A stretch of 64,000 bases of DNA. Origin: Streptomyces sp. NBC_01142 (GTDB lineage Bacteria > Actinomycetota > Actinomycetes > Streptomycetales > Streptomycetaceae). Below, in pieces: positions 49,376-58,610 of this stretch. Position numbers and translations under genes: made by a program. Every line of letters starts with the position of its first letter. Positions within the stretch are counted from its first letter, which is position 1. The DNA lies in the NCBI RefSeq assembly GCF_026341125.1, contig NZ_JAPEOR010000001.1, positions 2,046,001-2,110,000 of the forward strand, given 5' to 3'. The notes beneath the pieces were generated by a model. It ran no database searches. It was not told the origin of the DNA and worked only from the letters and a program-made list of their open reading frames with translations.

Positions 49376-50101
49376 TCAAGCAATGTGCCGTGCTGCCAGT
49401 GCCGGGATCGCGGCGATCTTCTCCGCTGTGAGGTCGGACCAGTGCACGCCGGTAGGCCGGCGGGGGTTCGGGCACACGATGCTTTCGTCGGGTGTGACGA
49501 TCAGGTCGACGCTGACGTCGTGCTCTGTGGTGGGAATCGGGGTCTCGGTCACCTGAAGTGCGTGGACGGTGGTCACGACCATAGTTTCCGGCGTCACCAG
49601 ACCGGCCTCGGTGAGCAGGGCGAACTCGATGTCCGAGTAGCCGGCGCCCTTGCCGATGCGCGCGCCGTCGCGGTTGACGGCGACGCTGCCGAGGATTATC
49701 AGGTCCAGGGGGCGGAGGGCGTCTACCTCAACGGTGGGGGCGATGGCGGCAGCGGTGCGGCTGGCGGCAGCCTCGGCGGGCGGGATGGTGAGGGTGGCGG
49801 GGTCGAGGAGGTAGAAGGGCTTGAGGGTGGCCAACTTCGGGACCGCCATGTAGACGGTCTTGCCCTCCTCCAAAGCCCGTGCCCGGACCGGGAGCTGGGC
49901 TTTGTCCGGAACGGCTTTGACGACACCCGCACGCTGCCAGGCCGGGAGCCCCGCCAGCCGGGCCGCAGCTTCCTCGGCGCCCTTGAAGTTGGGGATGCGG
50001 CCGTGTACGGAGGCGTCGTGGACGGCGTCTGCGGCGGTCAAGGCATCCCAGACGTGCGTGCGTACCGCCTGCTTGGCTTGATCCAGCGAGCTGGCTGCCA
50101 C
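49376..50101 (-). CDS. 5-formyltetrahydrofolate cyclo-ligase-like protein
   Basis: 241 residues of the 5-FCL/MTHFS family: SLDQAKQAVRTHVWDALTAA, VYMAVPKLATLKPFYLLDPA, then LDLIILGSVAVNRDGARIGK and GAGYSDIEFALLTEAGLVTP, the family's substrate/ATP loops (usual GxGxGYYD has become GKGAGYSD). The enzyme makes 5,10-methenyl-THF from 5-formyl-THF with ATP; the altered loop and long sequence suggest a divergent member whose substrate may differ. Start set at the GTG at 50101 (AAGGAG, 6-nt spacing) rather than the GTG at 50116. Follows the XRE-TPR regulator by 19 bp as one operon. Confidence 0.8.
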   Translation of the reverse strand: MAASSLDQAKQAVRTHVWDALTAADAVHDASVHGRIPNFKGAEEAAARLAGLPAWQRAGVVKAVPDKAQLPVRARALEEGKTVYMAVPKLATLKPFYLLDPATLTIPPAEAAASRTAAAIAPTVEVDALRPLDLIILGSVAVNRDGARIGKGAGYSDIEFALLTEAGLVTPETMVVTTVHALQVTETPIPTTEHDVSVDLIVTPDESIVCPNPRRPTGVHWSDLTAEKIAAIPALAARHIA

Positions 50102-50120
50102 CGGTGTCTCCTTCACTCTT

Positions 50121-51287
50121 CTACGCTGCCGTCATCAAGCCGAGCAGTCTGTCGTGGACCTCGGCGACGAGGTGTTCCTGTCGCCAGGGGCGCAGTTCGC
50201 GGGCGGCTTCGAAGACGATGTTCATGCCTCCGCCCCCGCGTGTGGTCTCCAGTTCGGCGATGGCTTCGGTGAGGCTGGCCACCGCGGCTTCGACGTCGCG
50301 TTGGCGGATACGGGCGAGCGTAAGGTTTCCCAGCACGATCGCGCGTGACTTTCGCCTGTCCCGCAGCTTCTCCGCCGTGCTGGTCAGCAGGGTTTCGGCT
50401 CGTTGGTGGTCTCCGAGGGAGAGGTAGCAGGAGCCTGCGAGGCGGCCGAACTGGGTTGGCGACACAAGGTCGGCGGCGGCGTCGCTGCCGTCCGCGTAGT
50501 CGAGTTGGTGTTCTGCGCTGGAAAGAGCGCGTTCACAGTCTGAGGCCGACCGCAGCATGGCGTATGCCTCGGCGACGTGTAGGAGCGCCAGCCCGGACAT
50601 GGCCGGGCTCGTACGCTCGGCGGTTTCGGCTGCTTGCTCCGCGAGAGCGAGCCCGGCCTGCGCGTTACGTGCGCCGTACAGCGCGACGTAGCAGGTGCGC
50701 AGTAAGGCGTGTGCTTCGAGCGTGGGGTCCCGTAGGTGGCGGGCGAGGTCGGCGCTTCGCTCGTAGTACGTCTTCGCGGTGGTGTGGTCGCGGCGTTGCG
50801 AGGCGTCCCAGACCAACTGGCCCATGAGCGTACAGGCGTCGGCGTGCAGGGCATGGAGTTCCCTCTGCACGCGTCCGCGGGCGGATCCGGCGGCGAGCTG
50901 GTCGATGCGGTTGAGCTGCGCTGCTGCTTCTGCGATGAGGCCGGCCGAAGGCACACGGTCGTAACGAGCGGCGCAGTCGTCGAAGTGCGTGCGAAGTGTG
51001 GCCACGGCGGACAGATCGACGCGGCCCGGGTGAAGCACCGCGTAGTCGAGGGCGTCCTGCCCCTGCGTGCCACCTGGCGACCGCGCGGTGAGTAGGTCAC
51101 TGAGGCCCTCGGCATTGACGCGGAGAAGGCGGGCCAACCGTGGACGCATCCATGGCTGCGGTGCGGTGCGGCCTGATTCCCAGCGGGCGACAGTGGAGCG
51201 GTCTACCTGCATCTGCTCGGCGAGAGCCTCTTGGGTGAGCCCCACGGTTCGGCGGCGCGCTGCGAGACCGTTGCGGTGGTGCGCCAT
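50121..51287 (-). CDS. XRE-family regulator with TPR domain
   Basis: 388 residues. N-terminal helix-turn-helix (LAARRRTVGLTQEALAEQMQ, VDRSTVARWESGRTAPQPWM) and a long TPR-like helical part (LDYAVLHPGRVDLSAVATLR, ...ALLHVAEAYAMLRSASDCER, ...GRLAGSCYLSLGDHQRAETL). This layout is that of Streptomyces regulators that sense small peptides or gamma-butyrolactone-like signals, though the ligand is unknown here. ATG at 51287 preceded by GGGAG. Divergent from an anti-sigma-like ATPase at 51465 and thus a likely switch for the peptide operon that follows. Confidence 0.87.
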   Translation of the reverse strand: MAHHRNGLAARRRTVGLTQEALAEQMQVDRSTVARWESGRTAPQPWMRPRLARLLRVNAEGLSDLLTARSPGGTQGQDALDYAVLHPGRVDLSAVATLRTHFDDCAARYDRVPSAGLIAEAAAQLNRIDQLAAGSARGRVQRELHALHADACTLMGQLVWDASQRRDHTTAKTYYERSADLARHLRDPTLEAHALLRTCYVALYGARNAQAGLALAEQAAETAERTSPAMSGLALLHVAEAYAMLRSASDCERALSSAEHQLDYADGSDAAADLVSPTQFGRLAGSCYLSLGDHQRAETLLTSTAEKLRDRRKSRAIVLGNLTLARIRQRDVEAAVASLTEAIAELETTRGGGGMNIVFEAARELRPWRQEHLVAEVHDRLLGLMTAA

Positions 51288-51464
51288 GACGTTGTCTCCC
51301 CGTTTCGCATGCCCTGCCAGGGACTTGCGGCTGCGCGACTCCCAGGTGAGGCGTGAGTGTGACGCACGGATGCCGCATTGGTGCGTCCATTGTGCTCTGG
51401 GCGTCGTCGGCTGTGGGCGGTTGTGTGGAACTCCGACGTACCCAGCCAGGAAGGTTCGCCCTCC

Positions 51465-52004
51465 ATGCCGTTCCGAACACCCGCCCCGAAGTCCTCGTCC
51501 CTGCGTGTCCCGTCCGACGTCGGCGCCGTGCCTTCCGCTCGTCGCAGGGTTGTCGCGATCGTCCGTGACTGGGGCTTGCCGCTCGCGGACGACACGGTCG
51601 AGACGCTGGAGCTGCTGGCCGGTGAGGTGATCTCGAACGCAGTGGTGCACACGAGGGAGGGCTGCCAGGTCACGGTGAGCTGGGACGGGGCCCGCGTGCG
51701 GCTGGAGGCCGAGGACACGGAAGGTGGCCTCCTCCCGCAGTGGGCGTCGGCCGACCTGAACGAGGAGAGCGGGCGCGGACTGCAGTTGGTGGACGGTCTT
51801 GCCCAGGCGTGGGGCTCCCGGCCGACCACAGGCGGAAAAGCGGTCTGGTTCGAGGTCGCCAGTTGCTCACCCTCGCCCTACCGTCCGTCTCCCGCCGCAT
51901 GCAAAAGCGATTCCTCGTTCGGGGGCGCACAGCGGCCGCCGACGGTTGCCGAACCGGGATGCGTCGTGCCCAGCGGCTTTCGTGCGCATGTCACTGCCAC
52001 CTGA
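51465..52004 (+). CDS. anti-sigma-like ATP-binding protein with C-terminal extension
   Basis: 179 residues: GHKL ATPase with N box (TLELLAGEVISNAVVHTREG), G1 EAEDTEGG, G2 (NEESGRGLQLVDGLAQAWGS) and closing strand GGKAVWFEVASC. The last about 45 residues (PYRPSPAACKSDSSFGGAQR...) are unlike the family and may be unstructured. It stands between the XRE-TPR regulator and the 47-residue peptide gene, an arrangement parallel to the HTH-DUF397-ATPase triad at 10-11 kb but without DUF397. Confidence 0.84.
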   Translation: MPFRTPAPKSSSLRVPSDVGAVPSARRRVVAIVRDWGLPLADDTVETLELLAGEVISNAVVHTREGCQVTVSWDGARVRLEAEDTEGGLLPQWASADLNEESGRGLQLVDGLAQAWGSRPTTGGKAVWFEVASCSPSPYRPSPAACKSDSSFGGAQRPPTVAEPGCVVPSGFRAHVTAT

Positions 52005-52156: not shown

Positions 52157-52300
52157 ATGGCCGAGCAGAACGTGACCACGAACGGTGGTCAGGAGGGCGA
52201 CGGCCTGCTGGTCGCCCGTCGCCGGATCGCCGCCGCCCGTTCGCGGGCCGAGCAGCCCTCGGACGGCGGTTCCACCGGTCGTTCCGACGGCAACGACTGA
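52157..52300 (+). CDS. 47-residue peptide, candidate substrate (precursor) of the JmjC hydroxylase
   Basis: Too short for ordinary gene calling, but has a strong ribosome site (GAAGGAG, 8-nt spacing), an ATG and codon use like its neighbours. The product has an acidic/polar N-terminus (MAEQNVTTNGGQEGDG), a central LLVARRRIAAARSRAEQ with six Arg in 16 residues, and a Ser/Gly/Asp tail (PSDGGSTGRSDGND). No Cys, no transmembrane helix, no signal peptide. It ends 15 bp before the hydroxylase gene. Position and size are those of a ribosomally made precursor peptide; the Arg cluster suits the known Arg/His preference of ribosomal-oxygenase-type enzymes. It could instead be a small regulator or inhibitor of the operon. 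Confidence 0.68.
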   Translation: MAEQNVTTNGGQEGDGLLVARRRIAAARSRAEQPSDGGSTGRSDGND

Positions 52301-52315
52301 GAAGGGCCGTAACCG

Positions 52316-53500
52316 ATGACCACCGACGTACCTGCGGTGGTCGCGCACCTGGGCGAGGACTTCCTCGCCCAGGTGTACGGCCGCGCCTACCGCCACCTCC
52401 CCGGTGAGCCGGCCCGCTTCGGCGGCCTGCTCGGCTGGGACGACGTGAACGCACTGCTCACCCACCACCGGCTCGAACCGCCGCGCCTGCGCCTCGCGGT
52501 GGACGGCGAATCGCTGCCCCAGCACGCCTACACGGCGCCGGTCACTACCCGCCGCAGCACCGTGTGGCACCGGCTCAAGCCCGCCGATCTGCACCGCCAC
52601 CTTGCCGAGGGCGCCACCCTCGTCCTGGACGCGATCGACGAGTTGCACCCGGGTGTCGGCCACCTCGCCCAGGAGTTGGAACGACATCTGCGTACCGGCA
52701 TCCAGGTCAACGCCTACGCCTCCTGGACCTCCGAGGAGGGCTTCGGAGTCCACTGGGACGACCACGACGTGCTCGTCCTCCAGCTCGACGGCGCAAAACG
52801 ATGGCGCATCTACGGGCCCACGAGGCGGGCCCCGCTCCACCGGGACACGGAGGTCCCCGAACCGCCGCCGAACGAGCCGCTTGTCGAACTGGTCCTGAAC
52901 ACGGGGGACATGCTGTACCTGCCGCGAGGTTGGTGGCACGCGGTCGCCGCTTCCGAAGGCGTCCACTCTCTCCATCTCACGTGCGGCATGCAGACGACGA
53001 CCGGTGCGGACCTCCTCCAGTGGCTCTCCGAGGACCTGCGCCGCGAAGCGACCGTGCGCAGCGACCTGCCGTGCTTCGGGACCGAGGAGGAGAAGGCGGA
53101 CTTCGTGCGGTCGCTGGGCGACGTCGTTATGAAGGGATTCGAGGACGGAACGCTGCTCGACCGATTCCTCACCATGCGGGACGCGACCGACCGAGCCCGC
53201 CTCGTGCCCTCACTGCCGTACGTCGAGGGCGTACCGCCCGACCCCGCCGTCGCCGTGCGCCTTGTCACCGCTCGCGCCCGGTTGCACAGCGACACGGAGG
53301 GCAACGCGGTGCTGACGGCAGGGGGAGAGGAATGGACCTTTTCCTCCCAGGCCGCACCCCTGCTCTCTCTCCTCGTGGACGGAGGCCATCACCGCCTGGA
53401 CACACTCGCCCGAGCGGCCGGACTTCGCGTCGGGCAGGTCGCGCTGCTTGTAAGTGAGCTGGTGGACGGCGAGGTCGCGGCCGTGGGACGGGCCGGATGA
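52316..53500 (+). CDS. JmjC/cupin-4 2-oxoglutarate hydroxylase, ribosomal-oxygenase-like
   Basis: 394 residues. The double-stranded beta-helix carries the Fe(II) facial triad His146-x-Asp148 (GVHWDDHDVLVLQLDGAKRW) and His208 (RGWWHAVAASEGVHSLHLTC). The C-terminal 75 residues form a winged helix (LLSLLVDGGHHRLDTLARAA, GLRVGQVALLVSELVDGEVA), as in the YcfD/NO66/MINA53 family that hydroxylates Arg or His of ribosomal proteins. Here it sits next to a small peptide gene and far from ribosomal genes, so a peptide substrate is more likely. Overlaps the reductase start (53497-53500). Confidence 0.88.
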   Translation: MTTDVPAVVAHLGEDFLAQVYGRAYRHLPGEPARFGGLLGWDDVNALLTHHRLEPPRLRLAVDGESLPQHAYTAPVTTRRSTVWHRLKPADLHRHLAEGATLVLDAIDELHPGVGHLAQELERHLRTGIQVNAYASWTSEEGFGVHWDDHDVLVLQLDGAKRWRIYGPTRRAPLHRDTEVPEPPPNEPLVELVLNTGDMLYLPRGWWHAVAASEGVHSLHLTCGMQTTTGADLLQWLSEDLRREATVRSDLPCFGTEEEKADFVRSLGDVVMKGFEDGTLLDRFLTMRDATDRARLVPSLPYVEGVPPDPAVAVRLVTARARLHSDTEGNAVLTAGGEEWTFSSQAAPLLSLLVDGGHHRLDTLARAAGLRVGQVALLVSELVDGEVAAVGRAG

Positions 53501-54393
53501 GCGCCCAGCTCGCGGCCGGCACGTACCAGTGCTGCGACGTGTCCCAGTCGGTGACTGCGGCCGTGGACGCCGGGGTGACCTGGATCGACACGGCACCGAA
53601 TTACGCGTCCGGTACGGCCGAGGCAACTTTGCGGCCGGTACTCGACGCGTGCCCGCAGGTGCGCGTCTCGACCAAGGTCGGTTTCGTGCCCGACTCCGAC
53701 CGGCAGGCCGCTCGGGATGCCGGCGTGCTGCCGTACGACCGCGATCAAGGCCACTGCCTGGCACGTCCCTACATTGCCTGGCAGCTCGCTCGCAGCCGCG
53801 CCCGCCTCGGTTGCGTCCCGGACCTCGTCTTCGTCCACAATCCGGAACACGGTCGGATGAACCGGGCTGATGTGTCGTGGACGCTGAGCGAGGCATTCGA
53901 GGGACTGGAGAGCGCGGCGGACGACGGCAAGATCGGCGGCTACGGCGTCGCCACCTGGGCGGGCCTGTCGAGCGGCATGTTCACCATCCCCGAACTCACG
54001 GCACTGGCGGAGACAGTGGGTGGGCACCGTCACCACTTTCGGGCCGTGCAGTTCCCGGTGTCGCTCGTTCATCTCGCCGTGGTGGCGGACGCACTCGACG
54101 GACGCGGAGCGCTGGCAGAGGCGCGGGAAGCGGGGCTCGATGTCTTCGCATCGGCACCGCTCGGAGGAGGTGAACTCCTCGGCGCGATGACGGAGGAGTT
54201 GGTGCGCGTCATCGACGCCGCAGCCTCTCCGGCGCAGGCCGCACTCCTGCTCGCCCTGTCGGCCCCCGGAGTGTCGCGCGTCCTGCTGTCGGCGAGTACA
54301 CCGGCACACTGGGCCGATGCCCTGGGCGCTGCGGCCTGTGCGCCCTTGTCGCCTGATCGCCTGAGAGGGGTCATCGATGTCCTCGGAACCTGA
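53497..54393 (+). CDS. aldo/keto reductase
   Basis: 298 residues, TIM-barrel AKR. The catalytic tetrad is visible: Asp31 and Tyr36 (WIDTAPNY), Lys60 (STKVGF) and His114 (LVFVHNPEHG). The subgroup resembles D-threo-aldose/galactose dehydrogenase-like AKRs. In the operon it could reduce or oxidise a carbonyl made from a hydroxylated side chain, or act on an added sugar or small molecule. NADPH-binding C-terminal loop present (SPAQAALLLALSAPGVSRVL). Confidence 0.87.
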   Translation: MSAQLAAGTYQCCDVSQSVTAAVDAGVTWIDTAPNYASGTAEATLRPVLDACPQVRVSTKVGFVPDSDRQAARDAGVLPYDRDQGHCLARPYIAWQLARSRARLGCVPDLVFVHNPEHGRMNRADVSWTLSEAFEGLESAADDGKIGGYGVATWAGLSSGMFTIPELTALAETVGGHRHHFRAVQFPVSLVHLAVVADALDGRGALAEAREAGLDVFASAPLGGGELLGAMTEELVRVIDAAASPAQAALLLALSAPGVSRVLLSASTPAHWADALGAAACAPLSPDRLRGVIDVLGT

Positions 54394-55255
54394 CGACCCC
54401 GAGGTCGCCGCCCGCATGCGGAGGGCCCATACCGTGGCGTGCGGCTTCTTCGGGGCGGCCCGCGACGCTCGGGCGTCCGACGGAGGGCCGCAGGAGGTGT
54501 GGGGGTGGCGGGGACGCACGCTGGGCCGACCCGTCACCGGACCTTACGGACCGGGATGGCTGCGCGTTGCTCACAGCCCGGCCGACGAGGCCAGCGGCAA
54601 GCTGTGGACCGGTCCGGAGGACGCCGAACGCTTGGTGCCCCAGCAGATACCGCGCCCTTGTCTCCGTCTCGTACGGCAGTGGACGGAGAAAGAAGACGCG
54701 TACAGGGCAGAGCTGTACGACCACGTCACTGGCGGCCCCCTCTCGCCCACTCCGGTGCTTGCCGCCACGCCCCGCCTGATCACAGCCTGGTGGGACGACC
54801 TCCGTACGGCCCTCGACCGTCTCTCGGCGGTCCGTACCGACCGCACAGCAGTACGTCAGGCATACCTGGACCGTGCGATGCCGAAGTACCTCGCCTTCCT
54901 CGGCGGGTCTGTTCCTACGACTCCACCCGCGTGGTCCACCGCACATGGCGACCTGCACTGGGCGAACCTCGCCGGTCCTGAACTTGGCATCCTGGACTGG
55001 GAAGGCTGGGGCACCGCCCCGGCCGGCTACGACGCCGCCCTCCTGTACGCCTACAGCCTCACGATGCCGGAGACCGCCGAGCGCGTCCGCCGGGAACTTT
55101 CCACCGTTCTCGACAGTGACGCCGGGCGCTTCGCGGAGCTGGTGGTCATCACCGAGCTTCTCCAGAGCGCCGACCGCGGGGACAACCTCGAACTCCTCCC
55201 CGCGCTGCGGCAGCGGGCACGAGAGGTCTGGCACCAGATGACGGCCGACGGGTGA
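54377..55255 (+). CDS. phosphotransferase with aminoglycoside-phosphotransferase fold
   Basis: 292 residues. The kinase catalytic loop is HGDLHWANL (His190-Gly-Asp192) and the metal-binding DFG-equivalent is ILDWEGW (Asp207), followed by APAGYDAALLYAYSL, as in APH/choline kinase enzymes. The N-terminal lobe (GWGRGRTLGRPVTG, PGWLRVAH) is short and its ATP-binding Lys is not obvious, so nucleotide binding should be checked. Overlaps the reductase by 17 bp; last gene of the operon. May phosphorylate the modified peptide or a small molecule, or give self-protection. Confidence 0.8.
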   Translation: MSSEPDDPEVAARMRRAHTVACGFFGAARDARASDGGPQEVWGWRGRTLGRPVTGPYGPGWLRVAHSPADEASGKLWTGPEDAERLVPQQIPRPCLRLVRQWTEKEDAYRAELYDHVTGGPLSPTPVLAATPRLITAWWDDLRTALDRLSAVRTDRTAVRQAYLDRAMPKYLAFLGGSVPTTPPAWSTAHGDLHWANLAGPELGILDWEGWGTAPAGYDAALLYAYSLTMPETAERVRRELSTVLDSDAGRFAELVVITELLQSADRGDNLELLPALRQRAREVWHQMTADG

Positions 55256-55720: not shown

Positions 55721-55779
55721 CTCCTGAGGCCGTCGAATAATTCCGTGCCGTGCCACCGGTCGACGTACAGACTCGCCCC

Positions 55780-56397
55780 ATGGCGGACATGAGGGCGTTC
55801 CAGGATGCGGTCACCAGCTGGGCGACGGGCGGTCCCGATGCGCCGGCGCGTGATCTGGCGGAAAGCCTGGGGGCGCGGACCGCGGTGCTCCTGGAAGGGC
55901 TGAGCGATCTCGCGGCCGTCGAGGCGCTGGCCGCCCGGCGTGGCCGGGACCTGGCCGCCGAGGGAGTGTGTGTCGTGCCGATGGGCGGGGCGATGAGCGT
56001 CGGCCGCTATGCCGGCCTCCTCGGGCCGCCCGGCCTCGGTCTGCGCCTGACAGGACTGTGCGACGAGGGCGAACAGGACTTCTACGAGCGCGGCCTGACA
56101 CGGGCACAGGCACCGCTCCAGGACATCTACGTATGCACCGCGGATCTGGAGGATGAACTCATCCGCGCGCTCGGCACGGCAGGAGTCGAGGAGATCCTCC
56201 GCGCAGAGGGCGAACTCCGCGCCTGGCAGACCTTCCAGCGCCAGCCCGCACAGCACGGCCGACCCCGGCATCAGCAGGTGCGGCGCTTCCTCGGCACGAA
56301 GAAGGGCCGCAAGATCCGCTACGGCCGTCTCCTTGTCGAGGCCCTCGCACCGGACCGGACACCGCCCCCGCTCGACGGCCTCCTCGCGAGCCTGTGA
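55780..56397 (+). CDS. TOPRIM-domain protein of the OLD-nuclease type
   Basis: 205 residues. TOPRIM features: [20 protein letters not shown] (catalytic Glu), [39 protein letters not shown] (Asp-x-Glu-like), then [40 protein letters not shown] and [20 protein letters not shown], matching the stand-alone OLD/TOPRIM proteins of Streptomyces. No ABC ATPase partner is fused or adjacent. ATG at 55780 chosen; 55789 is also possible, and neither has a strong ribosome site. Nucleolytic activity unproven. Confidence 0.75.
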
Positions 56398-57890: not shown

Positions 57891-58610
57891 GTGGCGGCTA
57901 GATTCCCTTCCGCCGCTCAAGGCCGCGGACGTCAGTGGCATGACACGCGACCGGCGGCACAGGTATGCGGCGGACTCCCCGCCGTCGCGTCCGCAGTCCG
58001 CCTGGTCGGGCGCCGGGGCGTCCCGGCGCCCGACCAGGCGCACGTACCGCCGGTGACGCCGGAGCGGTCGCCGCCTTGTGCCGCCCAAGGGCAGAGCGTT
58101 GCCGAGATCGCCGACCGGCTGCATCTGGCCCAAGGGGGGTCGAGCAGCGTGTCCTTGATCGACACCTCCACCAACACCGTCATCACCCCCGTCACTTTGG
58201 GCACCAACCCCCGTGCCATCGCCGTCACCCCGGACGGCACGCGCGCCTACGTCACCAACTCCGGATCCGGCACGGTGTCAGTGATCGATACCGCCACGAA
58301 CACCGTGCTCACCGCGATCACCTTCGGAACCACACCACGCGGGCTGGCCATCACCCCGGACGGCAGCCGCCTCTACGTCGCCAACAACAGCTCGGGCACC
58401 GTCTCCGTGATCAGCACGGCCACCAATGCCGTCACCGGCACCATCACGGTCGGCACCACCCCTTACGGCGTCGGCATCACCCCCGACGGCACCCGCGCCT
58501 ACGTCGCCAACCAGGGATCGAACAGCGTGTCCGTGATCGACACCTCCACCAACAGCGTCCTCACCTCCGTCACCGCCGGCACCAGCCCATTCGCCCTCGC
58601 CGTCGCCTGA
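57891..58610 (+). CDS. YVTN beta-propeller fragment with LuxR-type helix-turn-helix remnant at its N-terminus
   Basis: 239 codons from a GTG. Residues about 85-239 are three full and one partial YVTN repeats (SVIDTATNTVLTAITFGTTP, ITPDGSRLYVANNSSGTVSV and variants), each about 42 residues, too few for a closed seven-bladed propeller unless it oligomerises. The preceding segment, PPCAAQGQSVAEIADRLHLA, QGGSSSVSLIDTS, reads like the first two helices of a LuxR/NarL DNA-binding domain cut at the recognition helix and joined in frame to the repeats. No signal peptide. May be a chimeric, possibly dead gene. Confidence 0.65.
   Translation: MAARFPSAAQGRGRQWHDTRPAAQVCGGLPAVASAVRLVGRRGVPAPDQAHVPPVTPERSPPCAAQGQSVAEIADRLHLAQGGSSSVSLIDTSTNTVITPVTLGTNPRAIAVTPDGTRAYVTNSGSGTVSVIDTATNTVLTAITFGTTPRGLAITPDGSRLYVANNSSGTVSVISTATNAVTGTITVGTTPYGVGITPDGTRAYVANQGSNSVSVIDTSTNSVLTSVTAGTSPFALAVA

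Follow-up and report, generated by a model that had tools for sequence, protein, structure and literature searches.

A conserved peptide-JmjC oxygenase cassette in Streptomyces and its relatives, probably a family of ribosomally made, modified peptides

Why should a gene for a 47-residue peptide stand directly ahead of a JmjC oxygenase gene, and is the peptide what the enzyme acts on? The question is raised by a 64,000-nucleotide stretch (C1:2046001-2110000, hereafter the window) of the 10.1-Mb genome of Streptomyces sp. NBC_01142, in which four open reading frames (ORFs), all on the forward strand, follow one another with a 15-bp gap and then overlaps of 4 and 17 bp. They encode the peptide, a JmjC Fe(II)/2-oxoglutarate (2OG) oxygenase, an aldo/keto reductase (AKR) and an APH-fold kinase; at E<=1e-5, a single JmjC relative was found in this genome. 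This four-gene cassette is real, and we consider it rather probable, from sequences and structural models, that it represents a family of ribosomally synthesised and post-translationally modified peptides (RiPPs), in which a JmjC enzyme carrying a domain like the RiPP recognition element (RRE) oxidises an Asp-rich core, the AKR and the kinase being the tailoring enzymes here. An earlier note on this DNA had described the four tight genes, the strong ribosome site of the first and the three enzyme families, and we confirmed the coordinates, gap and overlaps, the ribosome site (AAGGAG, 8 bp before the start) and the families (Pfam matches in Table 1).

Among 295 genomes of the genus, the peptide was matched at E<=0.01 in 39 (its own included), at 43 places, and at 41 of these a same-strand JmjC match begins no more than 500 nt downstream; the places lacking it are the two weakest peptide matches (E 0.0023 and 0.0091). 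Taken from the side of the enzyme, 43 JmjC matches of at least 46% identity, in 38 genomes, were used, and 41 are paired with the peptide. Of the two left over, one is a fragment, the second of a split gene of which the first is itself paired; beside the other (genome G173, locus L124) only the last core codons, GKGDGND, remain. Protein clusters matching the peptide at E<=1 numbered 75, the query's own counted, while no Pfam and no NCBIfam family matched it at E<=1. The ratio of nonsynonymous to synonymous substitution rates (dN/dS; Nei-Gojobori, 10 close sequences) is 0.044 over the last 32 codons, which comprise leader and core, and 0.76 over the N-terminal stretch (codons 33-46 from the end); the value of 0.044 rules out that the 47-aa frame is a chance ORF. 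Because a JmjC match follows closely at 41 of the 43 peptide places, and because the enzyme has an RRE-like domain, the peptide is very probably the JmjC substrate, as the earlier note had supposed.

The same arrangement recurs outside the genus. We named 78 loci, the best 78 of 86 confirmed JmjC-relative matches, which span Streptomyces, Kitasatospora, Actinomadura/Spirillospora/Actinocorallia, Nocardiopsis/Marinitenerispora and one Brevundimonas metagenome-assembled genome; by genus taxonomy, Nocardiopsis and Actinomadura belong to the Streptosporangiales and Kitasatospora to the Kitasatosporales. By tblastn, the peptide was found in 74 of these loci, the AKR in 70, the kinase in 71 and all four in 68, and in 67 the genes for peptide, JmjC, AKR and APH lie in this order on one strand with short gaps. 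A genetically encoded precursor beside modifying enzymes and conserved together with them, as expected of a RiPP cluster, is thus seen at 67 of the 78 loci and at 41 of the 43 places. As to the loci without a tblastn match to the peptide, L077 yet carries a divergent peptide, the JmjC genes of L093 and L110 appear disrupted, and in L111 the JmjC match starts at a contig end. The AKR is absent from L054, L077 and L124. At L214, a C-terminal JmjC piece (residues 206-393, 46%) is followed by the APH gene, with no AKR or recognisable peptide found; by the look of it, this is a decayed cassette.

All three enzymes look active, judging by the conserved catalytic residues in alignments that took in only ORFs within set lengths. 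The iron ligands HxD...H of the JmjC enzyme (H146, D148 and H208) are present in 99 of 99 sequences. The catalytic tetrad of aldo/keto reductases is Asp-Tyr-Lys-His, and D31, Y36, K60 and H114 are each kept in 67/68 sequences; APH-fold kinases share the signature HxDxxxxN and a metal-binding Asp, and here H190, D192 and D207 occur in 69/69, N197 and K75 in 68/69. Solved relatives were found by sequence neither for the APH protein (E<=0.1) nor for the AKR (E<=0.001). The JmjC enzyme, whose model has a predicted local distance difference test (pLDDT) of 84.3, has the architecture of the ribosomal oxygenases NO66, MINA and YcfD, with a C-terminal winged helix behind the JmjC domain. Its residues 300-394 (pLDDT 92.7) are modelled as strands and then three helices, which is the beta-beta-beta/alpha-alpha-alpha order of the RRE domain; Foldseek with this C-terminal domain returned ribosomal oxygenases first, and next PqqD, PbtF, TbiB1, McbB and TruD. 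In a model of the peptide fused to the enzyme, peptide residues 18-23 become a strand, with 10-residue block means of 65-66 pLDDT.

Which residues of the peptide would then be modified? We counted residues over 85 distinct peptide relatives, the window's own excluded (103 with a start found; L085 has none). D36, D44, N46 and D47 are invariant (85/85), L17 is found in 84/84, and S35 and G41 in 84/85. The pattern SD...D.ND is present in 178 of 179 peptide records, many of them alike, the exception being P0197 with GD for SD; the L077 peptide, outside these records, has PD instead. The earlier note had seen six Arg in 16 residues and taken Arg for the site of hydroxylation. That count is wrong in detail: five Arg lie within residues 21-30 and the sixth is at position 42. 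Neither aromatic residues nor Cys occur in the 47 residues. Arg21-23 are variable and position 42 is R in 60 relatives, K in 17 and V in 8, with all three enzymes kept at six Val42 loci that have long flanks. The check that the earlier note had set, a small gene conserved beside JmjC with a fixed Arg core, thus came out in favour of the gene (74/78 loci) and not of the core, and the alignment weakens the Arg core as target; the note was right on the kind of system and probably wrong on the target residue. Position 43 is S in 52 relatives, T in 27 and G in 6. A tie between AKR presence and residue 43 was rejected: the AKR-less loci all have Gly43 but form one clade, and Nocardiopsis loci combine Gly43 with an AKR.

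We propose the following route. The leader (about residues 14-34) would dock on the RRE-like domain at the C-terminus of the JmjC enzyme, where its residues 18-23 would form a strand, and this docking would bring the Asp/Gly-rich tail SDGGSTGRSDGND before the Fe(II)/2OG site. There the enzyme would most likely hydroxylate the beta carbon of a core Asp (or Asn). The oxidised core may next be tailored by the AKR and the APH kinase, carbonyl reduction and hydroxyl phosphorylation being examples. What the sequences and models show is conservation, synteny, intact catalytic residues, an RRE-like fold and a leader common to two precursor types; we infer what the strand pairs with, that Asp is the target, in which order the steps run, and that AKR and kinase act on the peptide. 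Asp is named as the target mainly because, together with Gly, it is common to the cores of all four precursor types found among relatives of this enzyme, called A (the present one) to D.

The other types came from 60 remote loci, hand-chosen from the lower JmjC rows plus four odd places. In 23 of them a remote JmjC gene goes with remote AKR and APH genes, and 18 of the 23 have a type B small ORF, for example GLLVAVEELTAVHDRYDSLRSDNAGSSGDAPWPGGDGN; 19 of the 60 (L126, L128-L130, L153, L155-L157, L159-L169) have ahead of JmjC a type C precursor with a variable number of EGPADGGAAGTPGVHDGGADGG repeats, almost free of Arg. In the remaining 18 neither the AKR and APH set nor type C repeats were found. 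Type B and C ORFs were selected by motif and ribosome site, so that some may be missed and the picks lean to the motif sought. Two further JmjC families were drawn from 20 loci: one has a type B peptide in 8/9, whose short core is mostly SDSDGSDG or a near form, and the second has type D, FEVEVEDLAEVTSRDITAGGDSDGTDSSSDFI, in 11/11. Type D, recognised by likeness between loci, is a 35-40 aa peptide, FEVEVEDLAEVTSRD...SDGTDSSSDFI (L193-L201, L211, L212), whose gene lies between a prolyl-oligopeptidase-like gene and the JmjC gene in all 11 loci. All 86 JmjC sequences of types A-D in the tree set retain H146, D148 and H208. By hhalign, type A and B leaders match at 92.2% (maximum of 50 column shuffles 2.8%, reversed profile 7.5%) and types B and D at 75%, while A against D (8%, not significant) and A against C (0.8%) do not; type D joins the other leaders through B only. 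In both JmjC trees, B and C each fall on one branch, as does D in the tree that holds it; type A is one clade in one tree (95/83) and not in the second, to which type D rows had been added and from which the out-groups and A_L124 were omitted. Six further small proteins gave a single weak NCBIfam match, below its cut-off, to the peptide of L120; at this locus the gene for a 53-aa peptide precedes a remote JmjC gene, and the gene downstream reads by eye like an arginase/agmatinase, which recalls the peptide-arginase RiPPs.

The cassette shares single features with several known systems. NO66, MINA53 and YcfD have the same overall fold as the cassette JmjC, winged helix included; their substrates are ribosomal proteins and, to our knowledge, their genes are not linked to a small gene. 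BipG of biphenomycin biosynthesis is a characterised JmjC enzyme in a RiPP pathway and, as proposed here, acts on a ribosomal precursor (PMC12707348); it needs ornithine and is partnered by a multinuclear non-haem iron-dependent oxidative enzyme (MNIO), a radical S-adenosylmethionine (SAM) enzyme and an Arg-to-Orn hydrolase, none of which is among the cassette genes or scanned neighbours. The aromatic-Arg-aromatic core of that family is likewise lacking, which leaves JmjC alone in common among the scanned genes. RRE-JmjC (PF08007) fusions, with the same JmjC and RRE-like fold, are remarked on in PMC12710340, with bacterial homologs at about 30% identity in RiPP-like contexts, so a connection between RiPPs and this JmjC family is not without precedent; the parts covered give no precursor, cassette or chemistry. 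The proposed outcome, beta-hydroxylation of a precursor Asp, is described for nitrilobacillin, by an MNIO, and for the graspetide enzyme SmaO, an oxygenase/hydroxylase whose family is unstated in the parts covered; the other enzymes differ from those of the cassette (PMC13060819, PMC13097080). Kinases of the APH family PF01636 also occur in thioviridamide-like and related lanthipeptide clusters according to the decRiPPter paper (PMC7794033), where a HopA1 protein for dehydration/cyclization stands beside the kinase; none is among the scanned window genes, and the cassette peptide has no Cys. Neither "cupin" nor "JmjC" occurs in the decRiPPter (PMC7794033) and RRE-Finder main texts, and the core and repeat strings gave 0 matches in open-licence papers. 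We found no description of this conserved RiPP-type cassette or its precursors among the open-licence papers listed.

Several observations weigh against a RiPP with an oxidised Asp. The ribosomal oxygenases, top of the fold search, have the winged helix as well; the isolated C-terminal domain had no Foldseek match at E 0.001 or better, and the leader strand depends on a short tether in a fused model of modest confidence. The cores also contain many Ser and Gly residues, and the type A core is less variable than most RiPP cores. No recognisable peptide lies near four partial JmjC pieces (at least 46% over 75-189 residues, outside the 43), of which L214 is one. In the type A neighbour clusters present in at least 5 of the 78 loci (21, of which 15 were scanned), no protease was seen, and the sole transporter is a MalK-type ABC ATPase in 5/78 loci. 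One could take the JmjC enzyme for a ribosomal oxygenase whose target is an Arg or His residue in a ribosomal protein, with the small protein as mere neighbour or helper; a ribosomal substrate predicts neither the patchy distribution nor the linkage, and the pairing of the JmjC rows (the two unpaired being a gene fragment and a core remnant) and the strong selection on the peptide make this explanation improbable. We likewise give little credence to an unmodified regulatory or partner peptide, sensed for example by the divergent XRE regulator: this gene adjoins the peptide in many loci, and the lack of a protease among the scanned neighbour clusters fits, but the conserved active sites of three enzymes of modification type and the RRE-like domain speak against it, and types C and D retain JmjC and small protein in different surroundings.

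A RiPP modified on Arg28 or Arg30, for instance to hydroxyarginine, is also quite unlikely in our judgement. Since both are nearly fixed (R28 84/85, R30 81/85), though in the presumed leader, an Arg target keeps some small probability, and YcfD is an Arg hydroxylase. Both residues, however, lie within the segment common with the type B leader, L077 lacks both Arg, and the type C repeats contain hardly any. BipG, which counts in favour of this reading as a JmjC enzyme that hydroxylates peptidyl ornithine, showed no detectable hydroxylation of Arg substrates (PMC12707348).

If oxidation of an Asp-rich core is confirmed, a JmjC enzyme with the fold of the ribosomal oxygenases would be tied to a small substrate of known sequence and to a domain like the RRE, the four precursor types, all small acidic proteins of actinobacteria, would be united by one enzyme family, and RiPP chemistry would extend to JmjC-driven oxidation of Asp-rich cores; it would also bear on the kinship of the ribosomal-oxygenase winged helix and RiPP recognition. 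A further, rather doubtful suggestion is that the products are hydroxyaspartyl peptides acting inside the cell as cofactor, metal ligand or signal, and not antibiotics. Between Streptomyces, Nocardiopsis and Actinomadura the type A core hardly changes, as is typical of peptide-derived cofactors such as pyrroloquinoline quinone (PQQ), and no kept exporter was seen among the scanned type A neighbours. Type C and D relatives often adjoin iron-sulfur proteins (Suc_Fer-like, FhuF_C): by clustering, with one representative of each cluster scanned, a Suc_Fer-like gene neighbours 14/18 type C loci (downstream) and 7/32 type B loci, and an FhuF-like gene, for which only the FhuF_C model was above cut-off, lies downstream in 6/11 type D loci; an AKR neighbours 17/32 type B loci. 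Yet no iron-box-like site was found: the best upstream match to an iron-box consensus has 7-8 mismatches and is no better than shuffles, and an iron-regulated siderophore was rejected.

Table 1. Features of the cassette and of the genes before it, in window positions.
Feature	Position	Strand	Basis
Precursor peptide gene, 47 aa	52157..52300	+	ORF, conservation, dN/dS
Predicted leader strand, peptide residues 18-23 (LVARRR)	52208..52225	+	Fused peptide-JmjC model
Conserved core SDGGSTGRSDGND, peptide residues 35-47	52259..52297	+	Alignment of 85 relatives
JmjC Fe(II)/2OG oxygenase with C-terminal RRE-like winged helix, 394 aa	52316..53500	+	JmjC_2 1.4e-30
RRE-like C-terminal domain, JmjC residues 300-394	53213..53497	+	Model, Foldseek and VIA matches
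AKR, 298 aa	53497..54393	+	Aldo_ket_red PF00248 9.7e-20
APH-fold kinase, 292 aa	54377..55255	+	APH PF01636 2.1e-6
Divergent XRE-type regulator, weak TPR matches	50121..51650	-	HTH_31 6.7e-10, HTH_3 4e-9
HATPase_c_2 protein	51465..52004	+	HATPase_c_2 1.5e-9

The genes around the cassette were assigned with crude gene calling; the scan took in one representative each for ten of the 21 neighbour clusters and members of another five, but not clusters 2, 11 and 12, which overlap the cassette. The span in Table 1 for the XRE regulator is its longest ORF, and its real start is probably internal; in a chosen set of divergent upstream proteins (the window's own and 53 from related loci), 34/54 match HTH_31. 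The HATPase_c_2 gene ends 152 bp before the peptide gene and is not clearly a cassette member, a cluster resembling it being present in 15/78 loci (one representative scanned). Adjoining the regulator (49376-50116, reverse strand) is a 5-formyltetrahydrofolate cyclo-ligase-like gene (PF01812), with a cluster of similar proteins in 8/78 loci. Directly after the cassette, 55750-56397 (forward) encodes a small protein matching an OLD-like TOPRIM domain (PF20469, 1e-7), and 57891-58610 (forward) a YncE/lactonase-like beta-propeller repeat protein. In the Actinomadura-type loci L079, L080, L082, L089-L091 and L112, a RibD_C-like divergent gene precedes the peptide (cluster 8; representative L071 scanned), and five Actinomadura-type loci have a second divergent gene (cluster 20), presumably the source of five SLOG matches.

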